Assembly: GCA_902515395.1 (NCBI GenBank)
Contig: CABXUL010000006.1
Location: 1 to 64,000, forward strand
Reading direction: 5' to 3'
From: an uncultured Bacteroidota bacterium
GTDB lineage: Bacteria; Bacteroidota; Bacteroidia; Flavobacteriales; Flavobacteriaceae
Length of the DNA stretch: 64,000 bases
The notes under the pieces are model-generated. The model searched no databases. It was not told where the DNA came from and was given only the letters and a program-made list of their open reading frames with translations. Position numbers and translations under genes: made by a program. This document shows, one piece after another, positions 44,678 through 49,064 of the stretch (the stretch's first letter is position 1; the number at the start of each line of letters is the position of its first letter).

Positions 44678-45643
44678 TTAAGTCTTAAATATCTTTCTAA
44701 GTATTTTAGATATTGCCTTATTCTCAATTAAAAATGCATCGTGTCCATGAATGGAATTAAGTTCATGATAATAAATTTTCTTTTTGAGATTTCTCCCAAT
44801 TTTAAAAGTCTTCTGATCCTCTTCGGGAGTAAAAAAAATATCGCTATCAATTGCAATTAAATGAATATCAGATTCAATACTTTTAATCACCTTTTCAATA
44901 GATTCTCCATTTCTTGTAATATCAACAGAGGCTAATAAATGATTCATAGTCTTATATGCTTTTAACAAAAAACGTTTAAAAAGTTTATCTCCATGATGAA
45001 TTAACCAGCTCTCTACATTGTAAATATTCTTCTCAAGGTTTTTAGTTCTCCCGAAACGCTCCGAAAAGGAGGCTGGAGTTCGATATGTTAACATCGCATG
45101 AATACGAGCATCTCTTATGGGATCTTTTGAATTTTCCAACAAACGTTTTTGGAGAAAAGTATTTGCAATAATCCAATCTGAAGCTTTCCAATCTGCAGCA
45201 ACAGGTATCAAATTTTTGGTTAATGAAGGATACAATGCTGCCATTTCCCATGCAATTCCACCTCCTATTGAACCTCCAATTAAAGCAAATAATTTTCCAA
45301 CTCCTAAGACTTGAAGTCCTTTGTAAAAAATCTCTGCAATATCACCGGTATGAAAATCTTGATAGTTTTCAATAATATAATTTTTTACACCATTTCCAGG
45401 AATATTAAATGCCAAGATTGCAAAAGTTTTCGTATCGATGGTTAGGTTCGGACCTACAATCTCGTTCCACCAGCCCGAAGAACCGGCGACATTTGCATCG
45501 CCAGTTAGGGAGTGGTTTATGAGAACCACTGGGGCATTAATACAATTTCTGCCAAAATGCTGATAATGCAATTCAACTTTATCGTAATAGCTACCGCTAG
45601 CAGTGGTAAAATTAGGAATCGATATGGTTTTAACCTTCGACAT
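44678..45643 (-). CDS. metX: Homoserine O-acetyltransferase-like alpha/beta hydrolase
   Basis: A 321-residue protein of the MetX family that activates homoserine with acetyl-CoA. The nucleophile elbow is LIGGSIGGGIAWEMA (Ser125). NHSLTGDANVAGSSGWWNEI carries the oxyanion region and conserved NHxLTG. The acid and base are in HLIAIDSDIFFTPEED and SIHGHDAFLIE. It is shorter than the typical 350-380 residues by trimming of the lid and C-terminus, as in other flavobacterial MetX proteins. Last gene of the SAM-II controlled operon, 10 nt after metY. Confidence 0.9.
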   Translation of the reverse strand: MSKVKTISIPNFTTASGSYYDKVELHYQHFGRNCINAPVVLINHSLTGDANVAGSSGWWNEIVGPNLTIDTKTFAILAFNIPGNGVKNYIIENYQDFHTGDIAEIFYKGLQVLGVGKLFALIGGSIGGGIAWEMAALYPSLTKNLIPVAADWKASDWIIANTFLQKRLLENSKDPIRDARIHAMLTYRTPASFSERFGRTKNLEKNIYNVESWLIHHGDKLFKRFLLKAYKTMNHLLASVDITRNGESIEKVIKSIESDIHLIAIDSDIFFTPEEDQKTFKIGRNLKKKIYYHELNSIHGHDAFLIENKAISKILRKIFKT

Positions 45644-45653
45644 TTATTCCATA

Positions 45654-46925
45654 TTATACTGCTTTAAGTGCTTGGTCCAAATCTTCTTTTAAGTCTTCAA
45701 TATTTTCAATTCCAACTGAGATTCTAACCAAATCGGACGAAACCCCTGTACTACTTTGCTCTTCTTCATTTAACTGAGAATGAGTAGTGCTAGATGGATG
45801 AATAATCAAAGATTTAGTGTCACCAATATTTGCTAATAAAGCAAAAATCTTTGTGGACTCAGCAACTTTCTTAGCAGCCTCAAAGCCTTTTTTAAGTCCA
45901 AAGGTAACTATGCCGCTTTTTCCGTTTGGTAAGTATTTATTAGCTAAATTATGGTATTTAGAAGAATTTAAACCTGGATAATTAACCCAACTTACTTCTC
46001 CTCTTGATGATAACCACTTGGCTAGTTCTAAAGCATTCTGAGAATGTTTTTGCATACGCACCTCAAGAGTTTCTAGGCCCTGAATGACTTGAAAACTATT
46101 TAGCGGACTAGGTGCGCTACCGAGGTCTCTTAAACCCTCTACTCTAACTCTCGCGATAAAAGCAATTGGACCTAAAGCTTCATGATACTTAAGACCGTGA
46201 TAGGATGGCGAAGGCTCAGTAAATTCAGGAAAATTTCCATTTGAGTAATCAAAAGTTCCAGCATCAATAATAATTCCACCTAGAGTAGTTCCATTACCAG
46301 TAATGTACTTAGTTAATGAATGGATAACAATATTGGCTCCATATTTAATTGGATTAAGTAAGGCAGGAGTTGCAATAGTGTTGTCGACAATAAAAGGTAC
46401 TTTAGCCACTTTTGCATGATCACTGATTCCTTTTAAATCAATCACATCCAATTTTGGATTGCCCAAAGATTCTGCAAAAAATGCTCTTGTGTTTGGCTCA
46501 ACTGCTTTTGCAAAATTCTCTGTATCATCAGGGTCAACAAAAGTTGTAGTAATTCCAAAACGGGGTAGGGTATTACTTAACATATTATAAGTTCCTCCAT
46601 AAAGGCTATTAGATGCTACAATATGATCTCCAGACTTTAATAAGGTCATAAAAGTAGTAGCAATAGCTGCTGTTCCAGAGGCGGTTGCCACTGCAGCAAC
46701 ACCTCCTTCTAAGGCAGCCAAACGCTGTTCAAGAACATCATTGGTGGGGTTATTTAATCTGGTATAAATATACCCTGCCTCTGAAAGTGCAAATAAATTG
46801 GCAGCTTGATCAGAATCCTCAAATACATAGGATGTGGATTGATAAATCGGAACAGCTCTTGTTCCTTGTGTTTTTTTCACATCATGCCCAGCATGAAGTG
46901 CGTTAGTTGCTAATTTTAAACTCAT
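45654..46925 (-). CDS. metY: O-acetylhomoserine aminocarboxypropyltransferase / sulfhydrylase
   Basis: A 423-residue PLP enzyme of the Cys/Met metabolism family that makes homocysteine from O-acetylhomoserine and sulfide. Features are [20 protein letters not shown] (N-terminal), [70 protein letters not shown] (Schiff-base Lys) and [22 protein letters not shown]. The length of about 425 and the LANIGD motif fit MetY rather than MetB/MetC. It overlaps metK by 4 nt. Confidence 0.94.
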
Positions 46926-48178
46926 AATTCAAAAGTGTTTTTAATTTTATTTAAATAATCTAATTTTTCCCAAGTAAAAAGCTCTACTTTTTTTTCTACT
47001 CTCCCACTATAGGGAGATTCAAAAACCTTGGTGATTTTTTGAGGTGATCTCCCCATATGACCATAAGCAGCTGTTTCTAGATAGATTGGGTTTCTAAGTT
47101 TAAGTCTTTGTTCAATAGCGTAAGGGCGTAGATCAAAAATCTGACTTACCTTTTCCGCAATTTCTACATCACTAAATGGCACTTTCGCAGTATTGAAAGT
47201 GTTTACGTTTATTGATGTTGGTGCTATCACCCCTATTGCATAACTTAGTTGAACTAATATTTCTTTTGCAACACCGGCAGCTACAATATTTTTAGCGATA
47301 TGACGAGCCGCATAAGCCGCTGATCGATCAACTTTACTTGGGTCTTTTCCACTAAAAGCACCTCCACCGTGGGCTCCTTTTCCTCCATAAGTATCCACGA
47401 TAATTTTCCTACCTGTTAGACCGGTATCCCCATGTGGACCTCCAATGACAAATTTTCCTGTAGGGTTTATATGGTAGATGATATCATCATTAAAAAGCTT
47501 TTGTATATGCAATGGCTCCTTATTTATAACATTTTTAACAGCTATATTAATAATATCACTATTAATTTTTTTCAAGACCTTCTCATTACTCTTATCAAAT
47601 GGGTCGTGTTGAGTAGAAACTACAATTGTATCAATTCTGATAGGCTTGTGGTTGTCATCATATTCTATGGTAACTTGTGACTTAGCATCGGGACGTAAAT
47701 AGGGAATTTGCTTACCATCCCTTCGTAAATCGGCAAGCTCAATCAAAATTTTATGAGATAAATCTAATGAAAGAGGAATATGGTTATCAGTTTCATCTGT
47801 AGCATAGCCAAACATTATACCCTGATCACCTGCCCCTTGTTCCTCTTTATTATCTCGATCGACACCTCTATTAATGTCTTTGGATTGTTCGTGTATTAGA
47901 GAAATGATACCACATGAATTTCCACTAAACTGATATTCATCTTTAGTATATCCTATATTATTAATTGTATCCCTAGCTATCTGTTGAACATCAAGATATG
48001 TACTACTTTTAACCTCTCCTGCAAGTACCACTTGACCAGTAGTTACAAGTGTTTCACAAGCAACTTTGCTTTCGGGATCAAAAGCAATAAAATTATCCAG
48101 TAATGCGTCACTGATTTGATCAGAAACTTTGTCGGGATGACCTTCGCTTACAGATTCAGAAGTAAATAAGTATGGCAT
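46922..48178 (-). CDS. metK: S-adenosylmethionine synthetase
   Basis: A 418-residue enzyme making SAM from methionine and ATP. Motifs: [20 protein letters not shown] (His of the ATP site), [32 protein letters not shown] and [20 protein letters not shown]. The length is longer than E. coli MetK (384) by loop insertions common in Bacteroidota. It is the first gene after a SAM-II riboswitch, so its product controls its own synthesis and that of metY and metX. Confidence 0.97.
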
Positions 48179-48180
48179 TT

Positions 48181-48280
48181 AAAAATTGCTTTGTGAAAGG
48201 ATTTGACAAAATAAAGTCTTAAAGCAATACCGCTTTAGCATTTTTTTAAGAGGTTGCAATCAGTCAAATCCTTCCTCGTT
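48181..48280 (-). promoter_or_regulatory. SAM-II riboswitch with expression platform, metK leader
   Basis: On the minus strand the aptamer spans about 48278-48226. P1 is GAGG (48277-48274) with CCTC (48253-48250); GATTTGACTGATTGCAA forms the J/L1 strand; the conserved GCTAAA lies at 48239-48234; and the pseudoknot P2 pairs ACTG (48264-48261) with CGGT (48232-48229). This matches the SAM-II (metA) consensus as I remember it, including GATTT, ATTGCAA and GCTAAA. Downstream, ATTGCTTT (48228-48221) pairs with AAAGCAAT (48192-48185) directly before the start codon, and AAGGATTTGAC of the aptamer (48273-48263) is perfectly complementary to GTCAAATCCTT (48207-48197). The two pairings cross, so they exclude each other. 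Confidence 0.85.
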
Positions 48281-48287
48281 TGAAGTG

Positions 48288-48295
48288 CAAAGTTA
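48288..48295 (-). promoter_or_regulatory. Promoter -7 element of the metK-metY-metX operon
   Basis: TAACTTTG on the minus strand matches TAnnTTTG. Transcription would start near 48283, just ahead of the riboswitch. The region 18-19 nt upstream is T-rich without a clear TTTG. Confidence 0.55.
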
Positions 48296-48449: not shown

Positions 48450-49064
48450 ATGCAATTTGCAATTGCTGGAAATATTGGCGCAGGTAAAACAAGCTTAGCT
48501 GAACTACTTTCGAAACATTATAAATGGGAGCCACATTTCGAGGATGTTATCGACAATCCTTATTTAGATGACTTTTATGTACACATGGAGCGATGGTCGT
48601 TTAACCTTCAGGTTTATTTTTTGAATAGTCGTTTTAGACAGCTAATGAGTTTTAACGGATCTGAAAAAAGTGTTGTACAAGATAGAACAGTTTATGAAGA
48701 CGCTTATATTTTTGCTCCAAACCTTCATTCTATGGGGTTAATGAATCAAAGAGACTTTAAAAATTATATATCACTATTTGAATTAATGGAATCAATGATT
48801 AAAGCCCCTGAGCTTTTAATTTACTTGAGAAGCAGTATTCCTAACTTGGTAAATAAAATTCATAAAAGAGGGAGAGAATATGAAAATTCAATAAGTATCG
48901 AATATTTAAGTCGCCTCAACGAACGTTACGAGGCTTGGGTATCAACTTATGATAAGGGTAAATTACTTGTTATTGATGTTGACAATTTAGATTTTGTTAA
49001 AAATAAAGAAGATCTAGGTTTCATCATCGAGAAAGTTGATGCAGAAATAAGTGGTTTATTCTAA
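48450..49064 (+). CDS. Deoxynucleoside kinase
   Basis: A 204-residue kinase of the dCK/dGK family. The P-loop is FAIAGNIGAGKTSLAELLS at the N-terminus. EPHFEDVIDNPYLDDFYVHM (substrate Glu), SVVQDRTVYEDAYIFAPNL (the DRS-like ERSxYSD segment) and RGREYENSISIEYLSRLNERY (LID Arg residues) complete the family pattern. It phosphorylates a salvaged deoxynucleoside; the base preference cannot be told. It is monocistronic, divergent from metK. Confidence 0.92.
   Translation: MQFAIAGNIGAGKTSLAELLSKHYKWEPHFEDVIDNPYLDDFYVHMERWSFNLQVYFLNSRFRQLMSFNGSEKSVVQDRTVYEDAYIFAPNLHSMGLMNQRDFKNYISLFELMESMIKAPELLIYLRSSIPNLVNKIHKRGREYENSISIEYLSRLNERYEAWVSTYDKGKLLVIDVDNLDFVKNKEDLGFIIEKVDAEISGLF

Follow-up and report, generated by a model that had tools for sequence, protein, structure and literature searches.

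A SAM-II riboswitch with a predicted two-state expression platform ahead of metK-metY-metX in an uncultured Flavobacteriaceae bacterium

The leader upstream of metK in the window (the whole 64,000-nucleotide stretch of DNA that was analysed) is, on sequence grounds, a SAM-II riboswitch of the 'long loop' type that would bind SAM. Our main reading, to which we give a probability of roughly two in three, is that this leader forms a two-state, probably kinetic, translational platform at the 5' end of the metK-metY-metX mRNA and that it would respond to SAM. Two helices carry this reading: an anti-aptamer pairing (A/A'), and a hairpin (B/B') whose 3' arm lies shortly before the metK start codon. 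The overall two-state proposal of the initial annotation was upheld by the covariance search and by the covariation of both helices, and a genuine SAM-II element with a two-state platform, extending well beyond the genome of the window, is well-supported. The features, from the promoter to the end of the gene cluster, are as follows.

48288-48295, minus strand: TAnnTTTG box (TAACTTTG), the Bacteroidota -7 promoter box, ending 10 bases before P1
48225-48283, minus strand: SAM-II aptamer, 'long loop' type
48274-48277, minus strand: P1 5' strand GAGG, pairing with CCTC
48263-48275, minus strand: strand A, aptamer stretch GGAAGGATTTGAC, overlapping the 5' strands of both P1 and P2 as well as the ligand-pocket strand
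48270-48254, minus strand: aptamer segment GATTTGACTGATTGCAA
48261-48264, minus strand: P2 pseudoknot 5' strand ACTG, pairing with CGGT
48250-48253, minus strand: P1 3' strand CCTC, partner of GAGG 48277-48274
48245-48251, minus strand: strand C, UCUUAAA, predicted to pair, within the anti-aptamer hairpin, with UUUAAGA (48223-48217)
48239-48234, minus strand: aptamer motif GCTAAA
48229-48232, minus strand: P2 pseudoknot 3' strand CGGT, partner of ACTG
48221-48228, minus strand: strand B, 5' arm ATTGCTTT, immediately 3' of the P2 strand, covarying
48217-48223, minus strand: predicted partner of strand C, UUUAAGA, overlapping B
48195-48207, minus strand: strand A', anti-aptamer GTCAAATCCTTTC, which can form 13 bp with strand A (-17.0 kcal/mol)
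48185-48192, minus strand: strand B', 3' arm AAAGCAAT, holding an A-rich stretch and lying at -14 to -7 relative to the metK AUG
46922-48178, minus strand: metK, methionine adenosyltransferase (TIGR01034, 512 bits)
45654-46925, minus strand: metY, O-acetylhomoserine aminocarboxypropyltransferase (TIGR01326, 632.5 bits)
44678-45643, minus strand: metX-like alpha/beta hydrolase, 321 aa (TIGR01392, 182 bits with a cut-off of 500; Abhydrolase_1)

The SAM-II core described in the initial annotation was recovered by a covariance-model search, in which RF01726 aligned over its full length (1-60) to the window leader with 72.2 bits (E 5.1e-12; gathering threshold 44), and each of the sequence elements that had been listed was found in its place on the minus strand. 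Among 20 aligned close leaders P1 was intact in all 20; the share of paired cells was 100% for P1, 97.5% for P2 and 97.5% for P1, P2 and B together, and at one P2 pair both sides have changed in relatives, from A-U to U-A. The motif was detected by covariance-model search in 285 of the 301 genomes of the family to which the window belongs, and it is present as a single copy in the assembled genome (1.67 Mb, 68% complete). No viral copies bearing the exact aptamer core were found. The leader lies upstream of metK-metY-metX on the minus strand, which is the methionine/SAM gene context of SAM-II elements. The metX-like hydrolase is short and probably a homoserine O-acetyltransferase, its score being under the curated cut-off and its acyl donor uncertain. 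The divergent neighbour of the cluster is a deoxynucleoside kinase gene (48450-49064, plus strand; PF01712, 184 bits). By its leader, the closest named relative is L086, 'uncultured Bacteroidetes bacterium isolate AG-430-N14', and the source bacterium would, judging from its relatives, be marine.

SAM-II long loops were catalogued in 2010 in Bacteroidetes and marine samples, according to the main text of that survey (Weinberg et al. 2010, PMC2864571), and the window element has the same aptamer sequence and structure and the same distribution as RF01726. However, the RF01726 model stops at the aptamer and the main text of PMC2864571 gives no expression platform, whereas the window leader has a predicted one; in the main texts of the open-access literature we found no published platform for a Bacteroidota SAM-II element beyond catalogue entries. 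The alphaproteobacterial SAM-II elements of metA and metZ (RF00521; PMC1273637, PMC9373788) have the pocket motifs GAUUUG and GCUAAAG in common with the window, as well as P1 with a pseudoknot, a promoter a few bases before P1 and an association with methionine genes. The window nevertheless fails the RF00521 model (18.9 bits against a gathering threshold of 36), and in the three related rhizobial metA leaders that make up our alphaproteobacterial comparison we found a strong terminator with a GC-rich stem, and complementarity to the aptamer was not above expectation (z about -0.9).

The platform was studied in a sample of 278 leaders gathered by an exact-core scan, two covariance-model searches and fetched stretches, 202 of which are non-redundant and have an assigned start codon. 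Second SAM-II copies occur in small marine Flavobacteriaceae genomes, at L124:1501-2624 (G300), L152 (G082), L166 (G004) and L167 (G053). The L124 aptamer lies upstream of queF (7-cyano-7-deazaguanine reductase, PF14489) and of a DUF6580 membrane protein; by eye, L152 and L167 resemble L124, and L166 lies upstream of a DUF6580-like protein. It was unexpected for a SAM-II element to precede a queuosine gene and what may be a transporter. Also by eye, a SAM-II-like aptamer in L249 (G056) lies immediately before an ORF resembling MetH (methionine synthase). Eight leaders (L144, L176, L179, L184, L190, L205, L267 and L272) carry an extra base in the pocket strand (for example ATTTGAACTGATTGC versus ATTTGACTGATTGC).

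In the window, AAGGATTTGAC (48273-48263) complements GTCAAATCCTT (48207-48197). This perfect 11-nt complement had been noted in the initial annotation and is present, but its length was understated, as the helix grows to 13 bp with one G-U pair (48275-48263 with 48207-48195). A perfect complement of at least 11 nt at such spacing is found at 0.19% of random window places, and none of 100 shuffled spacers matched the complementarity of the window. The A/A' helix dominates the predicted ligand-free fold (-27.5 kcal/mol; whole-leader z -3.0). Over the 202 leaders, the duplex between the spacer and the 5' half of the aptamer had a mean z of -2.46 relative to dinucleotide shuffles, compared with -0.11 in a mirrored control in which the aptamer was reversed without being complemented; in the 34 leaders from outside Flavobacteriaceae the values were -1.9 and, for the mirrored control, +0.16. 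The statistics on both helices were computed without a species tree; for the anti-aptamer, the mirrored control guards against kinship effects because it shares the same relatedness.

We then asked of the alignments whether the two strands change together. Little column covariation was seen in the 13-bp A/A' helix within the close clade alone, where an unchanging aptamer side makes such a comparison uninformative; register-free swap tests were therefore chosen. Spacers paired better with their own aptamers than with swapped ones (-17.3 vs -15.4 +/- 0.14 kcal/mol; z -13.5; 0/5000), and the same preference was found in 63 leaders with altered aptamer cores (again 0/5000), while the controls gave z -0.6 (mirrored) and z -2.5 (5' flank). 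This register-free test is the strongest evidence for an anti-aptamer. CAAAT, the pentamer that complements the invariant ATTTG, is present in 91 leaders where 30 +/- 5 are expected. With leaders having exactly one CAAAT as the anchor, aptamer position -2 (5' of ATTTG) and its partner covary (A-U 35, G-C 21), with 60 paired compared to 47.8 +/- 2.5 under permutation (0/2000), and position -1 does likewise. The 111 leaders lacking CAAAT show strong complementarity too (z -2.17) in different registers, for example TGCAATCAGTC against GACTGATTGCA in L029. The clearest case is L213, in which a changed aptamer, GAATAATTTGGTCTGATTGC, faces the spacer GCAATCTGACCAAATTATTC with 1 mismatch in 20 nt. 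Compensatory changes, whose absence from relatives had been named as an argument against the 11-nt pairing, are thus found at positions -2 and -1, in the swap test and in L213. In close relatives 85% of the A/A' cells are paired, a share that falls to 24-60% after sliding. We conclude that a putative anti-aptamer is conserved and co-evolving with the aptamer across Bacteroidota, the pairing being kept while its register drifts between lineages.

In L014, L039 and L040 the aptamer and a GTCAAA-type anti-aptamer precede metY and not metK; the anti-aptamer therefore travels with the aptamer rather than with metK. Many Flavobacteriaceae leaders (L007, L008, L023, L038 and others) have in common the arrangement GGCAGTG-TAAACTTCC-TTCGACG-CTATCGTCAAATC, in which a small GACG/CGTC hairpin would cover the first anti-aptamer bases and is a possible timing device.

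In 182 of the 202 leaders such a promoter box lies no more than 40 nt ahead of P1, whereas 6.6 are expected from shuffles. As 4-5 nt separate box and start in Bacteroidota promoters (PMC6847099), the predicted transcript start lies at about 48284-48283, 6-7 nt ahead of P1. This position of the box at the edge of the aptamer implies that the aptamer is transcribed first. When folding of the growing transcript was modelled, the aptamer stem held to about 84-90 nt and was then displaced by the anti-aptamer. Considering secondary structure alone, about 19 kcal/mol separate the aptamer fold from the more stable SAM-free fold; SAM could therefore hardly win at equilibrium, and a co-transcriptional commitment would be needed. 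The modelling suggests that the choice of fold would be a once-only kinetic decision during transcription.

The hairpin B/B' is also present, although it does not quite abut the start codon as had been described, six bases separating the arm from the ATG (48178-48176, minus strand). It occurs in about 28 short-leader marine relatives, including 3/3 sampled genomes of the genus to which the window belongs. One of its pairs varies between G-C (10), A-U (7), C-G (4) and G-U (3), and two more pairs covary. When whole arms were swapped, 261 pairs were counted for the own arms compared to 234 +/- 4 for swapped arms (0/5000). The 28 leaders used were chosen because they have B/B', a selection that raises the proportion of paired cells and, somewhat, the swap result; a register error in anchoring the 5' arms of L003 and L077 lowers the pair count slightly. 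In essentially all 28 leaders the 3' arm spans about -14 to -5 before the AUG. The unpaired probability of positions -15 to -6 is 0.59 in the free fold and 0.15 with the aptamer enforced, the latter value following from the selection of the leaders and the former not; accessibility of this region drops with the aptamer enforced in 28/28 leaders.

This hairpin belongs to a sub-clade. Over all 202 leaders a B/B'-like hairpin gave no signal (mean z +0.14), and we rejected it as a general Bacteroidota feature. A start-accessibility switch over -20 to +12 was likewise discarded as a general property, the shift over all leaders being weak (+0.02). Most Bacteroidota leaders with an anti-aptamer are without a recognised start-masking hairpin, and the values for -15 to -6 are 0.62 vs 0.55. 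In many relatives (L007 and L008 among them), codons 5-12 of metK contain CTTCAGAAA-GTG-TTTCTGAAG, a 9-bp hairpin that is imperfect in the window; this hairpin within the metK start may be a codon coincidence.

The order of the strands in the RNA is A, B, A', B', so that the two helices interleave. The initial annotation had read this crossing as allowing only one of them to form. They are indeed alternatives in nested folds; however, such an interleaving is a pseudoknot, coexistence of both helices is therefore sterically conceivable, and their exclusivity is a prediction. With both helices covarying and one of them covering the initiation region, the leader has the layout of the sequestor/antisequestor platforms (PMC2258182), in which exclusive anti-aptamer and start-masking helices resemble the pair predicted here. 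It differs from these platforms in general in that the masked element would be the A-rich initiation stretch of a phylum lacking Shine-Dalgarno sequences and in that the register of the anti-aptamer drifts.

In Flavobacterium johnsoniae, whose phylum is without Shine-Dalgarno sequences, high initiation is associated with adenines at -14 to -11 and with an unpaired start region, and ribosomal protein S1 has been suggested as the reader of the A-rich stretch (PMC6847099). B' carries an A-rich stretch of this initiation type, and SAM would therefore close metK by hiding B'. When SAM is plentiful, the aptamer, with P1 and the P2 pseudoknot, would close on SAM before A' leaves the polymerase; A' would then remain in the loop of the B/B' hairpin, the stem of B/B' would bury the A-rich bases from -14 to -7, and initiation on metK would fall. 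When SAM is scarce, A' would invade the aptamer and draw the strands of P1, of the pocket and of the pseudoknot into the 13-bp helix, strand C would presumably hold B in the loop, apart from B', and B' and the start region would be open, so that metK would be made.

Where the initial annotation had left the output as either hiding of the initiation region or termination, the comparison favours hiding. Were B/B' an intrinsic terminator in the same switch, SAM would cause premature termination just before metK. The stem does run into UUUUU (48185-48181), the first U being paired, U-tracts follow the stem immediately in both the window and its nearest leader, L086, a kinetic-looking switch fits termination, and many proteobacterial SAM-II elements have terminators (PMC1273637, PMC2258182). 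However, the stem has two G-C pairs only and a 28-nt loop, and a terminator scan of the window leader returned no site. Of the 28 leaders that share the covarying stem, 25 lack a U-tail, while the distance to the AUG is maintained; the tail is seen just in the three nearest ones, namely the window, L086 and, in part, L128. The GC-rich stem and conserved U-tract of a terminator platform are thus not found here, and translation control is likelier than termination. We rejected intrinsic termination as the general output and consider it unlikely for the window. Just as doubtful, if not slightly more so, is an anti-aptamer switch whose SAM-bound state would lead to Rho-dependent termination or mRNA decay, with B/B' as a local refinement: such an output would also serve the lineages without B/B', most Bacteroidota leaders having kept the anti-aptamer in the absence of a recognised start-masking hairpin, and their spacers are often pyrimidine-rich by eye, but in the clade of the window B/B' covaries and covers the start region.

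The long complementarity might instead be incidental or serve another purpose, such as a DNA site, in a plain SAM-II element whose P2 masks the start. The almost invariant aptamer side leaves most A/A' pairs unable to show covariation, and the close clade alone offers little for the 13-bp helix; yet the swap test, the mirrored control and the shifted registers point to pairing, and the start codon lies 50 nt past P2 in a phylum without Shine-Dalgarno sequences. This explanation is very improbable. Masking of the start by P2 has been described for the compact SAM-II element of the Sargasso Sea, whose Shine-Dalgarno sequence is inside P2 and which is thought to control translation (PMC9373788), as we propose for the window; in the window leader, by contrast, the start lies 50 nt past P2 and a separate candidate masking hairpin is present. 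Compact masking of the ribosome-binding site had been presented as the commonest SAM-II mode, a statement that does not agree with the literature, in which many alphaproteobacterial SAM-II elements precede predicted terminators (PMC1273637, PMC2258182, PMC9373788) and the compact arrangement is that of the Sargasso Sea element. The effect of SAM-II on expression has been studied in Sinorhizobium meliloti (PMC9373788).

Returning to the translational platform as our preferred reading, a broader form of it can be put forward tentatively, at a little less than even odds: Bacteroidota SAM-II elements would use an anti-aptamer of drifting register which, in marine Flavobacteriaceae, would be linked to a hairpin masking the A-rich element at -14 to -11, giving a translational platform free of Shine-Dalgarno sequences. 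To our knowledge, hardly any studies outside Sinorhizobium have dealt with how SAM-II affects expression. Control of translation by riboswitches is usually explained by hiding of the Shine-Dalgarno sequence, which Bacteroidota do without. The window leader and its many relatives are a compact example, supported by covariation, of what might be masked in its place, and the drift of the register while the pairing persists illustrates how an expression platform evolves when its target hardly varies.
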